A DNA stretch of 64,000 nt from Terriglobia bacterium (GTDB taxonomy: Bacteria; Acidobacteriota; Terriglobia; JAIQFV01). Shown here one piece after another: positions 2,932-10,639 of the stretch. Below the pieces are notes generated by a model that saw only the letters and a program-made list of their open reading frames with translations, searched no databases and had not been told where the DNA came from. The stretch lies in contig JAQUPQ010000020.1 in NCBI GenBank assembly GCA_028716525.1, positions 1 to 64,000 on the forward strand. Reading direction: 5' to 3'. Numbering within the stretch: position 1 is the first letter of the stretch; each line of letters opens with the position of its first letter. Both the position numbers and the translations under genes were made by a program.

Positions 2932-3068
2932 ATCTCTCCATTTCGGCTCTGTCGGCCGGTGCCGGGCTCTGTGCATTTACAATAAAATCGGTTATTATCG
3001 CCCACGATCCGATTCGATAGCGCGATCGAATGAGTTCCTTCACGGTCGTCTTCCTCGTGGGCCACAAA

Positions 3069-4310
3069 ATGAAATCCGTGAGGTTGGAGATGAATTTAAA
3101 AAATTCTCGATGCTGGTTTACCGTTTGGGCCGGGGTCGCCCTCCCGTTCCTTGTGGGCCTGGGCATATCCTCTTGGGCCTTGCCGAAGTTTCTCACCATG
3201 TATGAAAGCGATCCGTATTCAAATCCGGCCTGGCATGGACGGTGCGACACCTGCCATATAAATCCCAAAGGGTCGGGCCCCCGAAATGCGTTCGGCCAAG
3301 CCTTTGAGCGCCATGGCGAGACCATCACAATGGAGCTGCGGGCGGCTTTTCCGGATCGCTTCTTGGCGCAACCGCGTCCCTCGCATGAACCCGTGGTGGA
3401 GTTCAACCAGGAAAACCCCAACCTGATTACCGTTGAGATGAACGGCGAGCGAATACAGATCGACACGGCAACAAAGACCTTCCACAAACTGGAAAGTCCG
3501 CCCGCCCCGCTCCCCACCTCATCCAGCCGCGGCTCTCAGGAGAACTCCAAGGCCAGTGTCCCGACGGTATTGGATCATTACTTCGTCAATTTGCCTTCGG
3601 CGGTTCCCTATGCGCGGCATTCGTTGAATATGCGTTTCACGCACCGCTTCGACAGCGCGCCTTTTGATTCCATGCGGGGTGGCGGACCGAGCAATTTGTT
3701 CGGATTCGACGGGCTGGCGATCTCTTCATTCGGGCTGGAATACGGGCTGACCGACCGTATTGCCTTGACCGCCTATCGCAGCCCGCTTTACAAGACCGTC
3801 GAGTTCGGAGGAGAAATTTCCATTCTTCAGGAATCGAAGCGCCTTCCTTTTTCCCTGAAAGCCCTCGCATCCGTGGAAGGACGCAACAATTTCAAGCTGA
3901 CGGTCAATAACCGCGACTTTTTCGAACATTTTTACGGCGGGAATTTTCAAATCGTGATCTCGCGATCGATCGCCCACCGCGCGGAATTTGCGTTCGTCCC
4001 TACGTTTTCAACGAACACAAAGGTTTTTCCCGACGACACCAATCCTCACAAAAACACCGTAGCGATGGGGATGGCCACTTCGATCAAATTGACGCCTCAT
4101 TCCGCCATTGTGGCAGAATATGTTCCCCGGGTGGGAGGGTATGAATTCTCGGGCACTCAGCCGGTCGTGTCTTTGGGAATCCAAAAATCCACGGCCCGGC
4201 ATGTATTCGCGTTGGTCGTTTCGAAAACTCAAGCCACCACCACCGGCCAGCAGATTCTCGGCGGAAATGTCTTCACGGTAGGATTCAACATTTACAGGCG
4301 CCTCTTCTAG
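3069..4310 (+). CDS. Secreted heme-motif plus beta-barrel protein (DUF5777-like)
   Basis: A 413-residue protein with three parts. Residues about 8-38 form a signal peptide. Residues about 40-90 contain one CxxCH heme-binding motif (CDTCH) in a mono-heme cytochrome-like segment (NPAWHGRCDTCHINPKGSG, then NAFGQAFERHG). From about residue 170 there is a beta-barrel-like region beginning YFVNLPSAVPYARHSLNMRF, which I match to the DUF5777 barrel family, ending in a C-terminal FxxGFNIYRRLF strand. Start is uncertain: in-frame ATGs occur at 3030, 3069 and 3090. It would be an outer-membrane or periplasmic redox-linked protein. The next gene starts five bases after the stop. Confidence 0.7.
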   Translation: MKSVRLEMNLKNSRCWFTVWAGVALPFLVGLGISSWALPKFLTMYESDPYSNPAWHGRCDTCHINPKGSGPRNAFGQAFERHGETITMELRAAFPDRFLAQPRPSHEPVVEFNQENPNLITVEMNGERIQIDTATKTFHKLESPPAPLPTSSSRGSQENSKASVPTVLDHYFVNLPSAVPYARHSLNMRFTHRFDSAPFDSMRGGGPSNLFGFDGLAISSFGLEYGLTDRIALTAYRSPLYKTVEFGGEISILQESKRLPFSLKALASVEGRNNFKLTVNNRDFFEHFYGGNFQIVISRSIAHRAEFAFVPTFSTNTKVFPDDTNPHKNTVAMGMATSIKLTPHSAIVAEYVPRVGGYEFSGTQPVVSLGIQKSTARHVFALVVSKTQATTTGQQILGGNVFTVGFNIYRRLF

Positions 4311-6192: not shown

Positions 6193-7794
6193 CTACGGAG
6201 TCACGGTGACGCTGGTCGAAGCTCCGGCTTGCACATTTCCACTGGCCGTAACTCCGGTCGCGTTGGCCGTATTCGTGATGGTATTCGGGCACGGATCCGG
6301 TGTGATCAGGTTCGATGAACCGGTCTTAGGCGGTGAATCATGTACTCCGACCACGTGCACACTGCCAAATCCGGAGGTCCCGAATACGGAACTCTTCAGA
6401 AATACCGTGTAGCTGTCTGTGTAATCCCACCCCGAAGGGATCGAAATATTCGAGAGCGGTGCAGTTTCCGGAGGAGAATTAACCAGAAATCCCGTCACGA
6501 ATTGCGACAACAGCAAGTCGTCTGATAAAGAGCTGCCTGCCGCAATAATATTTGAGGCATTTCCAATGACCATCTTACCATCGCCCCCGCTCGCTCCCAA
6601 ACACCCATAGCCGGATGGATAATTGACGGTCCCTCCGCCGAACGTCGCGCTCCTGGCCTGGGTGATATAGTCGAATTGGGCCTGCAACACCACCGTACCG
6701 GCACCATTAATAAACTGGATATTGGCCTCATCGCTGCCCGTCAGGTCGCTGAACTTGTGTCCCCTCGTCCAGCCGGTAGCTGCTGTGGCGCCGGTGCCAT
6801 ATCGATTGTCGTTGAGTATTTGATTCTGGCGATAAATGACCTTGAGGCTGCCGGGCGGGACGGTGATGCCGTTGTACACTTCGCCGGGCGAAAACTCGAC
6901 GACCAAAGTTCCCGCATAGGTGACGGCGCTGCCCACCAAGGCGCATTCCTTAACCGGGGGGTAAAGTGTATTCGAGAAGCTGCGCGATTCTCCAGGTGAA
7001 AGATTGAATCCAGAAGCCACCACAAAGTCATCCCCAGTGAAATCCGGGGTCCCGTTGTCGTCCGTGATTGTGACATTGTTGATGGTCAATCCCCCGGTAT
7101 TCGTCACGGTGTAGGTATACGTTACCGGATCCAACGGATGAACCGTTGTGGGACTGGCGGTCTTCGTCAACGTCATCGAAGGAGCGGTCGGTCCGGACGT
7201 CGGAACCTCAATGAGAGTATCCTGGAAGACGTCTGTACAAGCGCCGTGGGCCAAGTAGCCGTCTGAGAAAAGCGGCACGGCCACCACTTGGCCTGGCAAT
7301 GGACTAAAACTGGGATTGGCATTCGCGGCGTTGACCATGGAGATTACATTGGCGGTGGGAGCACCAAAATAAGGACTGGTGGGATTATTGGTGCCCATAA
7401 CCAGCCAAAGGGCCGCCTGAACCTCAAACTTATCGCCAATCTTGTGATTCAGAAGATAATTGACCTTGGGCCAGGGAACAAATTGAAAGGTCCGGGGCAG
7501 GTTGCCGACCGGGCCCGTGCTGTCATAACACACGGAGGTGTAGTTTGGTTGATCCGGTTGAAAATCATCCTCGGCGCACCACCCCAGATATGTTCCGTTG
7601 GTGATGCTGAACCCCGTAGGCACATTGCTCAGAGTAATGTCCAGCGTGCCTCCTAGTGTCCCTCCCAACCACGTACCGGTGTTCACGGTCACTGGACCCG
7701 GGGGAAGATTAAGCAGCCCCTGCGCGATACAAAATGTGGGTAAAACCACAATTATTGCGACGACTATTAAAGAACCCATTACATTTCTCTTCAT
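6193..7794 (-). CDS. Large secreted surface protein, possible thioester domain plus DUF11-like repeat
   Basis: 533 residues with a signal peptide (1-25, ending CIAQ). Residues about 40-200 contain YLGWCAED and, about 75 residues later, WPKVNYLLNHK followed by FEVQAALWLVMG; this Cys...Gln arrangement resembles surface thioester (TQXA-type) domains. Residues about 205-285 form a DUF11-type Ig-like repeat (LTKTASPTTVHPLDPVTYTY). The rest is Gly/Ser/Thr-rich beta structure ending VTVTP, without an LPXTG or PEP-CTERM anchor. Function unknown; a surface adhesin or sheath component is an inference. It is a single-gene unit with a leader of up to 395 bases. Confidence 0.7.
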   Translation of the reverse strand: MKRNVMGSLIVVAIIVVLPTFCIAQGLLNLPPGPVTVNTGTWLGGTLGGTLDITLSNVPTGFSITNGTYLGWCAEDDFQPDQPNYTSVCYDSTGPVGNLPRTFQFVPWPKVNYLLNHKIGDKFEVQAALWLVMGTNNPTSPYFGAPTANVISMVNAANANPSFSPLPGQVVAVPLFSDGYLAHGACTDVFQDTLIEVPTSGPTAPSMTLTKTASPTTVHPLDPVTYTYTVTNTGGLTINNVTITDDNGTPDFTGDDFVVASGFNLSPGESRSFSNTLYPPVKECALVGSAVTYAGTLVVEFSPGEVYNGITVPPGSLKVIYRQNQILNDNRYGTGATAATGWTRGHKFSDLTGSDEANIQFINGAGTVVLQAQFDYITQARSATFGGGTVNYPSGYGCLGASGGDGKMVIGNASNIIAAGSSLSDDLLLSQFVTGFLVNSPPETAPLSNISIPSGWDYTDSYTVFLKSSVFGTSGFGSVHVVGVHDSPPKTGSSNLITPDPCPNTITNTANATGVTASGNVQAGASTSVTVTP

Positions 7795-8189
7795 ATGGCA
7801 CCCGCTTTCCTAATTCATTATGGTTTAGAGTTTGAACCCGTTTCCAACCCGGTCATCCCGTGGCGATAGGTGTCCTTTACCCGGTTTTGTACCGAGCGTT
7901 CCTCCCCTATTTATGTGATTGAAGGATGAAAGAAACGGCGGCCCGAAATTACGCTTTCATGTCTGCGAAACACGGGATCTAAGATTCAAAAGGGTGGTCG
8001 AAGAGCCCCCTGCTTTCGTAACCATCCTGCCTCAACAAAAAACCTTCAAAAACTCAGGCCCTAAAATTCGGGGCGAAATGTGTGATGCATGACCCAAGTT
8101 GACGGCACACTCTCTTGTAGCACAAAAGAATTTTTGGAACAAGATGTTCAGATAAATTTTTGATTTTAAATGGACTTATTCAATCCAGA
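7795..8189. other. Gene-free region: leader of the surface-protein gene
   Basis: No credible ORF on either strand. On the minus strand, about 40-120 bases upstream of the surface-protein start (7831-7910), a C/G-rich stretch can fold: CTCGGT and ACCGGG pair around ACAAA, followed by GCCACGGG and ACCGGGTTGG blocks. This suggests a structured 5' leader; see the finding on a possible GEMM-like element. The 3' end of the nucleotidyltransferase gene also lies here, with no clear terminator. Confidence 0.4.
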
Positions 8190-9239
8190 TTAGTCAAGGA
8201 AGTATTGGGAAGTTCTTCGCAGGCACTCTGCCAATTGAAAAGGAAGTCGCGGAAAGCGGTTGAAAGCGCCATGGGTTCCCACGGTGGCCTCAACAGGATT
8301 GGGCCAACGCTGCCAAAGGGCCCTCGGCAAGCCGGATGGATGGCGGAGATGAAAACCCATCGGAGTGCGCAAACCCTGGGGATCGGGAACCTTCCCCCAC
8401 TGTTGCAACACCGAATCAATCAGCCACTTCGGCAGGACACGCTTATGCAAACTTTCCGGAAAATCGTCACGCTTGGCCCCGAGTAATTCGGCGGCCAGAA
8501 TTAAAACACACGCGACCCAATCGGACCGTCTTTTGTCGCCACTCATGAAGTAGTCCCAATCGAACGGGTCGGACAACGTCTCCAAAAGAACAGCAACATC
8601 GCAAAGCCAGATCGGCCGCCAGGCTCCGTGCGCCAGCAAGTGGAGGCACAGCAAACGCAGATGATCTTCCGCTCTTAAAACCCGAATTCCGATGCCCTCT
8701 ACATCGATGCATTGGGACCGTTCAAAGATAGAATCCGCGTTCCGATCTTTCAGCAGGACAAAGCCATTATGAAGGTCAATTTCGCCTCTTCCCCCGGGAG
8801 CGCTATTCAGCACCTCCTGTGCTTTCAAATGTTCCTTCGGGCGAACGTAAATATCTATATCTCCCAACGGCCGCATGCCATGCTCGGGATAGAGCCGTGC
8901 CACGGCCCATCCCTTTGCCACAATCGGTTCCACACCGAAAGATCGAATGTGTCGGACAATTTCCTTGATTTGAAGTTCGCGGAATTTGAAGGAAAGCTGC
9001 TGAGCACGAAACTCTTTTTGCAGTGGGTTGAGCGGCGGGGGAATCTCAGCTTTCGGCTGACGCAGTTTCCACCAAACGAGACCCGCCGAACCGCTTTGAA
9101 TCAGCAGCGGAATAATCTCTTCAATTTTCTCGGGGGAAACCTCAGCGGGCGGCGGTCGTCCATCCCATGAACGGAAGAGCGCCCGGGCGATCAGTTTTCC
9201 TTGATTCGTCGACACCTTGGATACAAGACTCAATGCCAT
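8190..9239 (-). CDS. Nucleotidyltransferase family protein (NTP_transf_5-like)
   Basis: 349 residues. The centre carries the nucleotidyltransferase signature: GVEPIVAKGWAVARLYPEHG followed by RPLGDIDIYVRP, where the D-x-D would bind metal. A further conserved patch is LRLLCLHLLAHGAWRPIWLCD, typical of the uncharacterised nucleotidyltransferase group found in peptide natural-product (for example lasso peptide) clusters. The start ATG follows the PqqD-fusion stop after eight bases, so the two are one transcript. Inferred role: transfer of a nucleotide to a peptide, or an accessory or immunity function. There is no lasso cyclase or transglutaminase-type protease nearby. Confidence 0.75.
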   Translation of the reverse strand: MALSLVSKVSTNQGKLIARALFRSWDGRPPPAEVSPEKIEEIIPLLIQSGSAGLVWWKLRQPKAEIPPPLNPLQKEFRAQQLSFKFRELQIKEIVRHIRSFGVEPIVAKGWAVARLYPEHGMRPLGDIDIYVRPKEHLKAQEVLNSAPGGRGEIDLHNGFVLLKDRNADSIFERSQCIDVEGIGIRVLRAEDHLRLLCLHLLAHGAWRPIWLCDVAVLLETLSDPFDWDYFMSGDKRRSDWVACVLILAAELLGAKRDDFPESLHKRVLPKWLIDSVLQQWGKVPDPQGLRTPMGFHLRHPSGLPRALWQRWPNPVEATVGTHGAFNRFPRLPFQLAECLRRTSQYFLD

Positions 9240-9247
9240 TCAGCGGG

Positions 9248-9778
9248 CTAAACGGATATACAACCTGACGTGCAGCCCGGTTGACAGCATTGATGAACTT
9301 GGCAACATATCAGGGCCGGATTATTCTTACAACACTTGCCGATCTCCGAAACCCCGTTTTTAATCGCATTGTGGCAACTCACACAGGCGCTGGCTGCCTG
9401 TGCAGCGCTGGGAACCAGAATCGATAAAACGCCGATACCCCCCACCAGCGCGACCTTCTTCAGAAGGTCCCGTCTGGATCTTCCTTCCAAAATTCCTGAT
9501 GGCGGCTGGATGCGTTCCTCAAGGAGGCCGGCCTTACTGAGCCGCTTCAGACCCACCCAAACCACGTCTTCATCGACTGAGGATCCCAGGTGTTTTTGCA
9601 TCCGCCGGGCGATCTCCGACACGCTGGTTTTTCCGTCACACTGTTTCCAAATCCATACGGCCGTCTGGTCCAAACAATGCGCCTTGTTCCGGTCCAACTC
9701 ATACACCAACGTTTCGTCCTTCAATTCTTCAATGACCAATCCCTCTTTCCTGGATCGTGGAAACGCCCGTTTTGCCAT
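9248..9778 (-). CDS. PqqD domain fused to a Tat-like signal and a Cys-rich tail
   Basis: 176 residues in three parts. Residues about 10-92 form a PqqD-type winged helix (LVYELDRNKAHCLDQTA, then VSEIARRM), the fold that binds leader peptides of modified peptides. Residues 101-128 hold SRRDLLKKV, a hydrophobic stretch and PSAAQA, which resembles a twin-arginine signal with a signal-peptidase site. Residues 131-176 are a short tail with ten cysteines, including three CC pairs and one CVSCH. A clear GGAG nine bases upstream supports the ATG at 9778. It lies between an HprK-like kinase and a nucleotidyltransferase. Inference: a self-carried recognition domain with a cysteine-rich product peptide. 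The CVSCH could be read as a heme site, but the cysteine-dense context makes a disulfide or modified mini-protein likelier. Confidence 0.75.
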   Translation of the reverse strand: MAKRAFPRSRKEGLVIEELKDETLVYELDRNKAHCLDQTAVWIWKQCDGKTSVSEIARRMQKHLGSSVDEDVVWVGLKRLSKAGLLEERIQPPSGILEGRSRRDLLKKVALVGGIGVLSILVPSAAQAASACVSCHNAIKNGVSEIGKCCKNNPALICCQVHQCCQPGCTSGCISV

Positions 9779-9826
9779 AACTTTGTTCTCCTTCCCAAAA
9801 CCCGCCGGAATAAGTCGTTTGAGACC

Positions 9827-10639
9827 TCAAACCAAAAGATTCCCTGCAACGTCCCGAGCCTCACCCCGAATTCCCTTCAAGACCGGGACGCTCGAAACCA
9901 AGTGCTGTACGATTCGCATGGTCTTTTTGGGATTTCGTTGCGCCGACATGGCGTTCGACAAGAGTGACAGGGCTGCCCGGCCGGGGGAGCAGGTTTGGGG
10001 GCGCCATTGGGCCCCCTTTCTGTAGTTACACAGGACGATCATCCCAATCGGTACGGGACGCCTGGCAATCCGATTCCGAGGAATCATCGGGAAGCGCTTC
10101 AATGTTCCATCCCGCCCCGGACTGCGCAAACCAATCTGTATGGGATAAGGAAACACTCGACCCTTTGAATCCATCACCGCATACTCATCGGAAAAATATG
10201 TAGCTCCGGCCTTGACCAGAGCCGCCACCAGGGTGCTCTTACCGCTAAAACTTTTTCCCGGAAAAACAATCCCTCTTCCGCGCCAACCGACCACTGCCCC
10301 ATGAACAAACATCTCGCGTCGGGATTCGCCGGCCACGTAAAGCGCCAAATCGGATTCCAGCGCCGTATAAATATCTTCCCGATTCATGGTTCTTGCCAGG
10401 ACCGTCAAAGCATTGTAAAGAACATTATATCTTTTCACCCGCGAGTTCTTCTTCACAGTGGGAATAACGATCGAATAGATCCGATCCACTGTGGAGTAAC
10501 GGATCCGCTTCCACCCGAATGGAAGAATCCCGCGAACTCGTCCCAGTGTTCCTCGCCTCGTGGAACGAATGCCGATCCTCAGTCCATAAGCCGAAAAACT
10601 AAGACCTTCCGCCCACCCGAGGCGGTCGAGTTTCTTCAT
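9827..10639 (-). CDS. HprK-like serine/threonine kinase of peptide-modification clusters
   Basis: 270 residues. P-loop VFPGKSFSGKSTLVAAL (residues about 144-160) and the HprK-type acid patch ATYFSDEYAVMDSKGRVFPYP match the C-terminal kinase domain of HPr kinase, but the N-terminal HprK domain is replaced by about 130 unrelated residues. Such stand-alone homologues occur with PqqD proteins in natural-product clusters and in some lasso clusters phosphorylate the peptide. No HPr gene is in the window, so a sugar-transport role is not supported. It lies 48 bases upstream of the PqqD fusion; its start codon follows a tiny ORF's stop (TGAATG). Confidence 0.8.
   Translation of the reverse strand: MKKLDRLGWAEGLSFSAYGLRIGIRSTRRGTLGRVRGILPFGWKRIRYSTVDRIYSIVIPTVKKNSRVKRYNVLYNALTVLARTMNREDIYTALESDLALYVAGESRREMFVHGAVVGWRGRGIVFPGKSFSGKSTLVAALVKAGATYFSDEYAVMDSKGRVFPYPIQIGLRSPGRDGTLKRFPMIPRNRIARRPVPIGMIVLCNYRKGAQWRPQTCSPGRAALSLLSNAMSAQRNPKKTMRIVQHLVSSVPVLKGIRGEARDVAGNLLV

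Follow-up and report, generated by a model that had tools for sequence, protein, structure and literature searches.

The window analyzed in this work, a stretch of 64,000 nucleotides from the Terriglobia bacterium contig JAQUPQ010000020.1, contains a three-gene cassette on the minus strand, in which a gene encoding a fused protein is placed between the genes for an HprK-like kinase (K) and a nucleotidyltransferase (N) (Table 1). The most probable explanation, to which we give a probability of about 0.6, is that the fused protein is the precursor of a secreted peptide, carries its RRE in cis, is decorated by K and N, is exported and is then cut by a signal peptidase. The arrangement is real and recurs beside the same two enzyme genes in several phyla; phosphorylation, N activity, export and cleavage of the fused precursors we infer from sequence features and by analogy with related systems.

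Table 1. Features of the cassette in the window (positions of the window, numbered from its first nucleotide).
Feature	Position	Strand	Basis or remark
Fused precursor, 176 aa: RRE (PqqD), Tat-like signal and Cys-rich tail	9248–9778	−	
RRE/PqqD domain, residues about 8–88	9515–9757	−	PF05402, AlphaFold, Foldseek
Tat-like signal, residues 101–128: S-RR-DLLK, hydrophobic stretch, AQA	9395–9478	−	TIGR01409
Predicted mature peptide, residues 129–176: 48 aa, 10 Cys, Ser130 at +2	9251–9394	−	
Ribosome-binding site AAGGAG of the precursor gene	9788–9793	−	9 nt before ATG
HprK-like kinase (K), 270 aa, Walker A GKSFSGKST	9827–10639	−	TIGR04352, PF07475, motif, conserved neighbour
Nucleotidyltransferase (N), 349 aa, NTP_transf_5 PF14907, GDIDI motif	8190–9239	−	E 4.5e-29, conserved neighbour

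Domain Structure of the Precursor

The precursor ORF starts with ATG on the minus strand. The Pfam model PF05402 (PqqD) matches its residues 23–72 with 32.1 bits (E 1.5e-7), above the cut-off of 23.4 bits, and a PqqD match was found in all 61 aligned members of the family. AlphaFold, supplied with an alignment of 61 rows, predicted the RRE order of three strands (residues 14–18, 22–27 and 32–37) and three helices (38–46, 53–64 and 70–82) with a pLDDT of about 95–97; the confidence of the model is low beyond about residue 120. The nearest fold revealed by Foldseek is the lasso RRE TbiB1 (5v1u/5v1v; probability 1.00, TM 0.71–0.75 to the target, best E-value 1.6e-3). Judged by its modeled fold, the window precursor is an RRE protein.

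A sequence-only reading of this DNA had proposed that a PqqD fold, a Tat-like signal and a separate tail are joined in a single chain. This architecture was borne out, as PF05402 and the NCBI model TIGR01409 (21.3 bits over residues 101–128, cut-off 16.7 bits) both score above their cut-offs, and the match of the N-terminal part to RRE profiles agrees with the predicted order of its strands and helices and with the TbiB1 fold. A PDB sequence search with the window protein gave chance matches only, PADLOC gave no match, and no convincing promoter or terminator was revealed at the cassette by a consensus scan.

Distribution of the Fused Precursors

A search for related loci with the single window protein gave no match. 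Relatives were collected by profile searches across the class and phylum and by scanning named genomes; 121 sequences remained after removal of exact duplicates, and 114 of them were usable. These 114 members with the fused architecture belong mostly to Acidobacteriota and also to Gemmatimonadota, Methylomirabilota, Chloroflexi and Myxococcales, and their hosts are bacteria of soil and groundwater. Two further genomes from the same family (G001 and G002) were searched and do not have the gene. Two scans of viral sequences gave no match, and the plasmid search yielded a Gemmatirosa relative and, apart from it, only distantly related PqqD proteins of Halobacterium. The former lies on plasmid 1 (1.1 Mb) of Gemmatirosa kalamazoonensis KBS708 (L217), in a cassette with HprK, NTase and a six-Cys tail; its location on a named replicon makes it useful for experiments.

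The counts do not include weak PqqD matches with in-frame stops or PqqD genes that stand alone. One of the former, L006 (G036:C112), is a decayed remnant of a cassette with several frameshifts or stops. It should also be mentioned that L055:6960–7658 was not accepted as a family member, being a different protein with a PEP-CTERM-like end (VPEPATVAMAAGALAALGIKAYKR); it has a winged-helix/PqqD-like start, an RR signal and Glu/Gln-rich repeats, and neither K nor N is encoded nearby.

Kinase and Nucleotidyltransferase Genes

The K gene is located 48 bp upstream and the N gene 8 bp downstream of the precursor gene. Both neighbours, which accompany the precursor gene in the window and at the majority of loci, were overlooked in the sequence-only reading. 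The window K reaches 58.5 bits with TIGR04352 (HprK_rel_A), under the cut-off of 200, and its match to PF07475 is weak; its Walker A motif is intact. Among the 74 loci that extend 3 kb or more to either side of the gene, HprK was found at 57 and NTase at 59, with both present at 50, at least one at 66 and neither at eight. The usual order, read along the shared strand, is HprK, precursor gene, NTase.

Judged by their sequences, K and N are the enzymes of paeninodin-type lasso peptides and of linear polyphosphorylated peptides (LPP). It was shown that BsfK phosphorylates Ser3 of the core and that the RRE BsfB1 boosts the reaction (PMC10368454). The target of LppK is likewise Ser3, shortly downstream of an SpI-type cut (PMC13381572), and the N enzyme of pseudomycoidin extends the phosphate with hexoses (PMC8498205). 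In the fused precursors, Ser or Thr is present within five residues after the AxA site in 85 of 87 members versus 37 of 54 controls, and Ser alone in 72 of 87 versus 19 of 54, the control set being small and chosen by regular expression. In the Cys-poor LPDGS subfamily the Ser at +5 is invariant and most of the tail varies.

Alternatively, the loci could encode a disulfide-peptide secretion system in which the target of K and N is not the tail but the RRE domain, a polysaccharide or some other neighbour, and the RRE only tethers the precursor to the two enzymes. Such targets would be in line with the position of LPP clusters in capsule loci and with the heterologous LPP system, where N had no detectable effect (PMC13381572), as well as with the polysaccharide deacetylase that adjoins one of our loci (L038). 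We regard this explanation as unlikely, as Ser/Thr residues are enriched right after the cut site and homologous K enzymes phosphorylate Ser3 with the help of an RRE.

If, as we prefer, the tail itself is decorated, the RRE would fold in the cytoplasm and recruit the HprK-like kinase and the NTP_transf_5 enzyme without a leader recognition motif. By analogy with BsfK, LppK, paeninodin and pseudomycoidin, the kinase would place a phosphate on a Ser/Thr no more than about five residues from the signal-peptidase site, and N would add a further group to the phosphorylated residue. The leader motif [YW]xxPx[LVIFA] of discrete RREs was detected in only two of the 114 members, where it falls within the signal; of 101 loci, only one has an ABC ATPase at a distance of up to 3 kb. 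The lack of this motif and of an exporter is expected if the RRE is tethered and export proceeds via the signal.

Split Cassettes and the Twin-Arginine Signal

Five loci (L049, at 6651–9195, and L218, L219, L220 and L222) contain a gene for a small RR-signal protein directly upstream of genes for a discrete PqqD, HprK and NTase, and the RR signal is located near the end of this small separate protein. The PqqD proteins of the last four loci score above the TIGR04353 cut-off. These split cassettes, in which the two halves are encoded separately, are the strongest sign that the fused chain corresponds to a precursor plus an RRE, and they strengthen the earlier suggestion that the recognition domain appears to be carried by the substrate itself. 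The small RR-signal peptides are at the same time candidate precursors for TIGR04353 systems.

In the window precursor the signal motif begins at S101, and AQA at residues 126–128 is the predicted signal peptidase I site. R102 and R103 are invariant in all 61 aligned members, the family consensus is S-RR-x-phi-phi-[KR], or more exactly S-RR-[EDQ]-phi-phi-[KR], and an AxA-type site is usually found downstream of RR. Thus, the sequence features of a Tat substrate (twin-arginine motif, hydrophobic region and AxA) are present; the TIGR01409 match is weak across the family, reaching E 0.01 or better in only two of the 61 members. The source genome encodes TatC and four signal peptidase I (Peptidase_S26) genes, the latter all on other contigs. 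The features of the signal suggest that Tat is a more likely export route than Sec; the few TIGR01409 matches and the unusual internal position of the signal, about 100 residues from the N-terminus, count against this assignment.

Both the weakness of TIGR01409 and the internal position of the segment could also be explained by an uncleaved N-in/C-out anchor of the Sec type, with the RRE in the cytoplasm and an external Cys-rich head serving in sensing or surface structure; the NHL/TIG-repeat surface proteins around the cassette in L042 and L043 are consistent with such a role. However, the AxA-type site is conserved, the signal has the Tat-like consensus S-RR-x-phi-phi-[KR], and in the split cassettes the RR signal belongs to a small protein of its own, close to the end of the chain, which makes a membrane anchor rather improbable. 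For an exported and cleaved precursor, as favored here, the internal twin-arginine signal would direct the tail through the membrane, with Tat as the most likely route, and a housekeeping signal peptidase I would cut after AxA, giving a free peptide of about 20–60 residues and leaving the RRE plus signal behind.

Variability of the Tails

The ten Cys and three CC pairs described earlier for the window tail were confirmed, and its length was corrected from 46 to 48 residues. No close homologue of this exact tail was found among the relatives recovered. Most members have 6, 8 or 10 Cys in their tails with many different spacings, so that the conserved cysteine spacing expected among homologues was not observed. 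Among tails at no more than 50% identity, the Cys number is even in 72 of 73 that contain at least four Cys (p 8e-21 if the tails were independent, a value weakened by their relatedness), as expected for secreted disulfide peptides. The parity supports the view that in most members, including the window one, the cysteines would form disulfides once they have left the cytoplasm. The CVSCH sequence (a CxxCH motif) of the window tail raised the question of heme binding, but binding of heme or metal by this motif and the CC pairs is very improbable, as CxxCH occurs in no other of the 114 tails, Cys totals are even and related tails fit disulfide folds.

Of 60 six-Cys tails, 21 have the spacing C-C-CC-C-C, and the structure modeled for such tails is similar to knottin folds (probability up to 0.98), with E-values that are not significant for a very short chain. 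This subset shares its spacing and predicted fold with knottins (inhibitor cystine knots) and, unlike the known ones, is bacterial and borne on an RRE-signal leader. The pattern is absent from the window tail, whose ten Cys are differently spaced. Some subfamilies have Pro- or Gly-rich tails with few or no Cys; together with the varied spacing, this indicates that cysteines are typical cargo and not a defining feature.

For pairs with RRE identity above 0.6, the median identity is 0.64 in the RRE, 0.71 in the signal and 0.33 in the tail, and most tandem paralogues likewise diverge fastest in the tail. The tail is thus probably a variable cargo on a conserved maturation-and-export module; this forms part of the explanation preferred here, and the probability given for it above applies to the whole.

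Comparison With Known Systems

The fused-precursor loci have an HprK-like kinase, an RRE and an NTP transferase in common with the LPP system (LppA/K/B/S/D/N; PMC13381572), and in both the N-terminal region of the precursor is conserved, the C-termini are highly variable and a signal-peptidase-type cut is located or predicted a few residues before Ser. However, LPP systems have a discrete RRE, a YxxP (YxxPxV) leader motif, an MsbA-like exporter and a dedicated SipW-like peptidase in the cluster, whereas in the fused precursors the RRE is part of the chain, the motif is practically confined to the two signals mentioned, no such exporter was found at the loci, and the Peptidase_S26 genes of the source genome lie outside the contig. 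An RR signal and mostly Cys-rich tails further distinguish the fused precursors.

The K, RRE and N gene set is likewise shared with paeninodin-type lasso systems (PadeK, PsmK/PsmN, BsfK/B1), and the lasso B1 protein TbiB1 has the fold closest to the RRE of the fused precursor. Unlike them, the cassettes have no B2 peptidase near the tested loci and no adjacent lasso cyclase: PF13471 is absent from the source genome and from the vicinity of loci in 42 genomes, and SGGxDS gave one candidate in 101 loci. A lasso-peptide cluster was therefore rejected for want of a B2 peptidase. Since the discrete RRE, leader motif, exporter and peptidase of LPP and the B2 peptidase and cyclase of lasso systems were not found, we assign the cassettes to neither type.

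The HPr-rel-A system (TIGR04352/TIGR04353 PqqD_rel_X) also combines an HprK-related kinase with a PqqD-family protein, and TIGR04353 is matched by 23 of the 61 fused members. This model describes a short PqqD domain (74 positions), whereas PqqD of the window type is fused to a signal and a tail.

It can tentatively be hypothesized, at somewhat less than even odds, that there is a separate RiPP class, in which the precursor has its own RRE, receives phosphate and further groups from HprK-like and NTP_transf_5 enzymes, and is exported by a twin-arginine signal as a disulfide mini-protein. If so, the leader would be a maturation scaffold and an export signal in one chain. Borosins are also self-modifying precursor fusions, in which the substrate chain includes part of its maturation apparatus; they fuse a catalytic enzyme to it, whereas the RRE precursors fuse only the recognition domain.

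The sequence-only reading had called this maturation design unfamiliar. Indeed, no published description of PqqD with a twin-arginine signal, a knottin, an HprK-related kinase or a precursor fusion was found in the searchable open-access literature, which covers few subscription journals; the system is nevertheless less isolated than claimed, because the overlooked K and N tie it to known phospho-RiPP pathways. Searches for RiPP clusters that rely on RREs assume these domains to be placed in or near enzymes, and here the RRE marks the substrate. It was reported that 21% of PF05402 proteins are larger than the discrete form and lack any further Pfam annotation (PMC12710340); the fused-precursor proteins would fall in this pool.

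If the preferred explanation is right, it supplies an immediately usable set of secreted peptides, often of knottin-like type, from Acidobacteriota that are for the most part uncultured. It also gives access to the N enzyme, which is poorly understood, and joins phosphopeptide maturation to the general secretion machinery. Antagonism, adhesion and signalling are candidate roles of the secreted peptides.

Additional Observations on the Loci

In L042 and L043, large NHL/TIG-repeat proteins flank a precursor with a CxxC tail inside the K–N cassette. Elsewhere in the window, the plus-strand gene at 3030–4310 encodes a DUF5777 beta-barrel protein that has a CDTCH motif close to the N-terminus, and a DUF11/DUF7507-repeat surface-type protein is encoded downstream of the cassette on the same (minus) strand, at 6193–7794.
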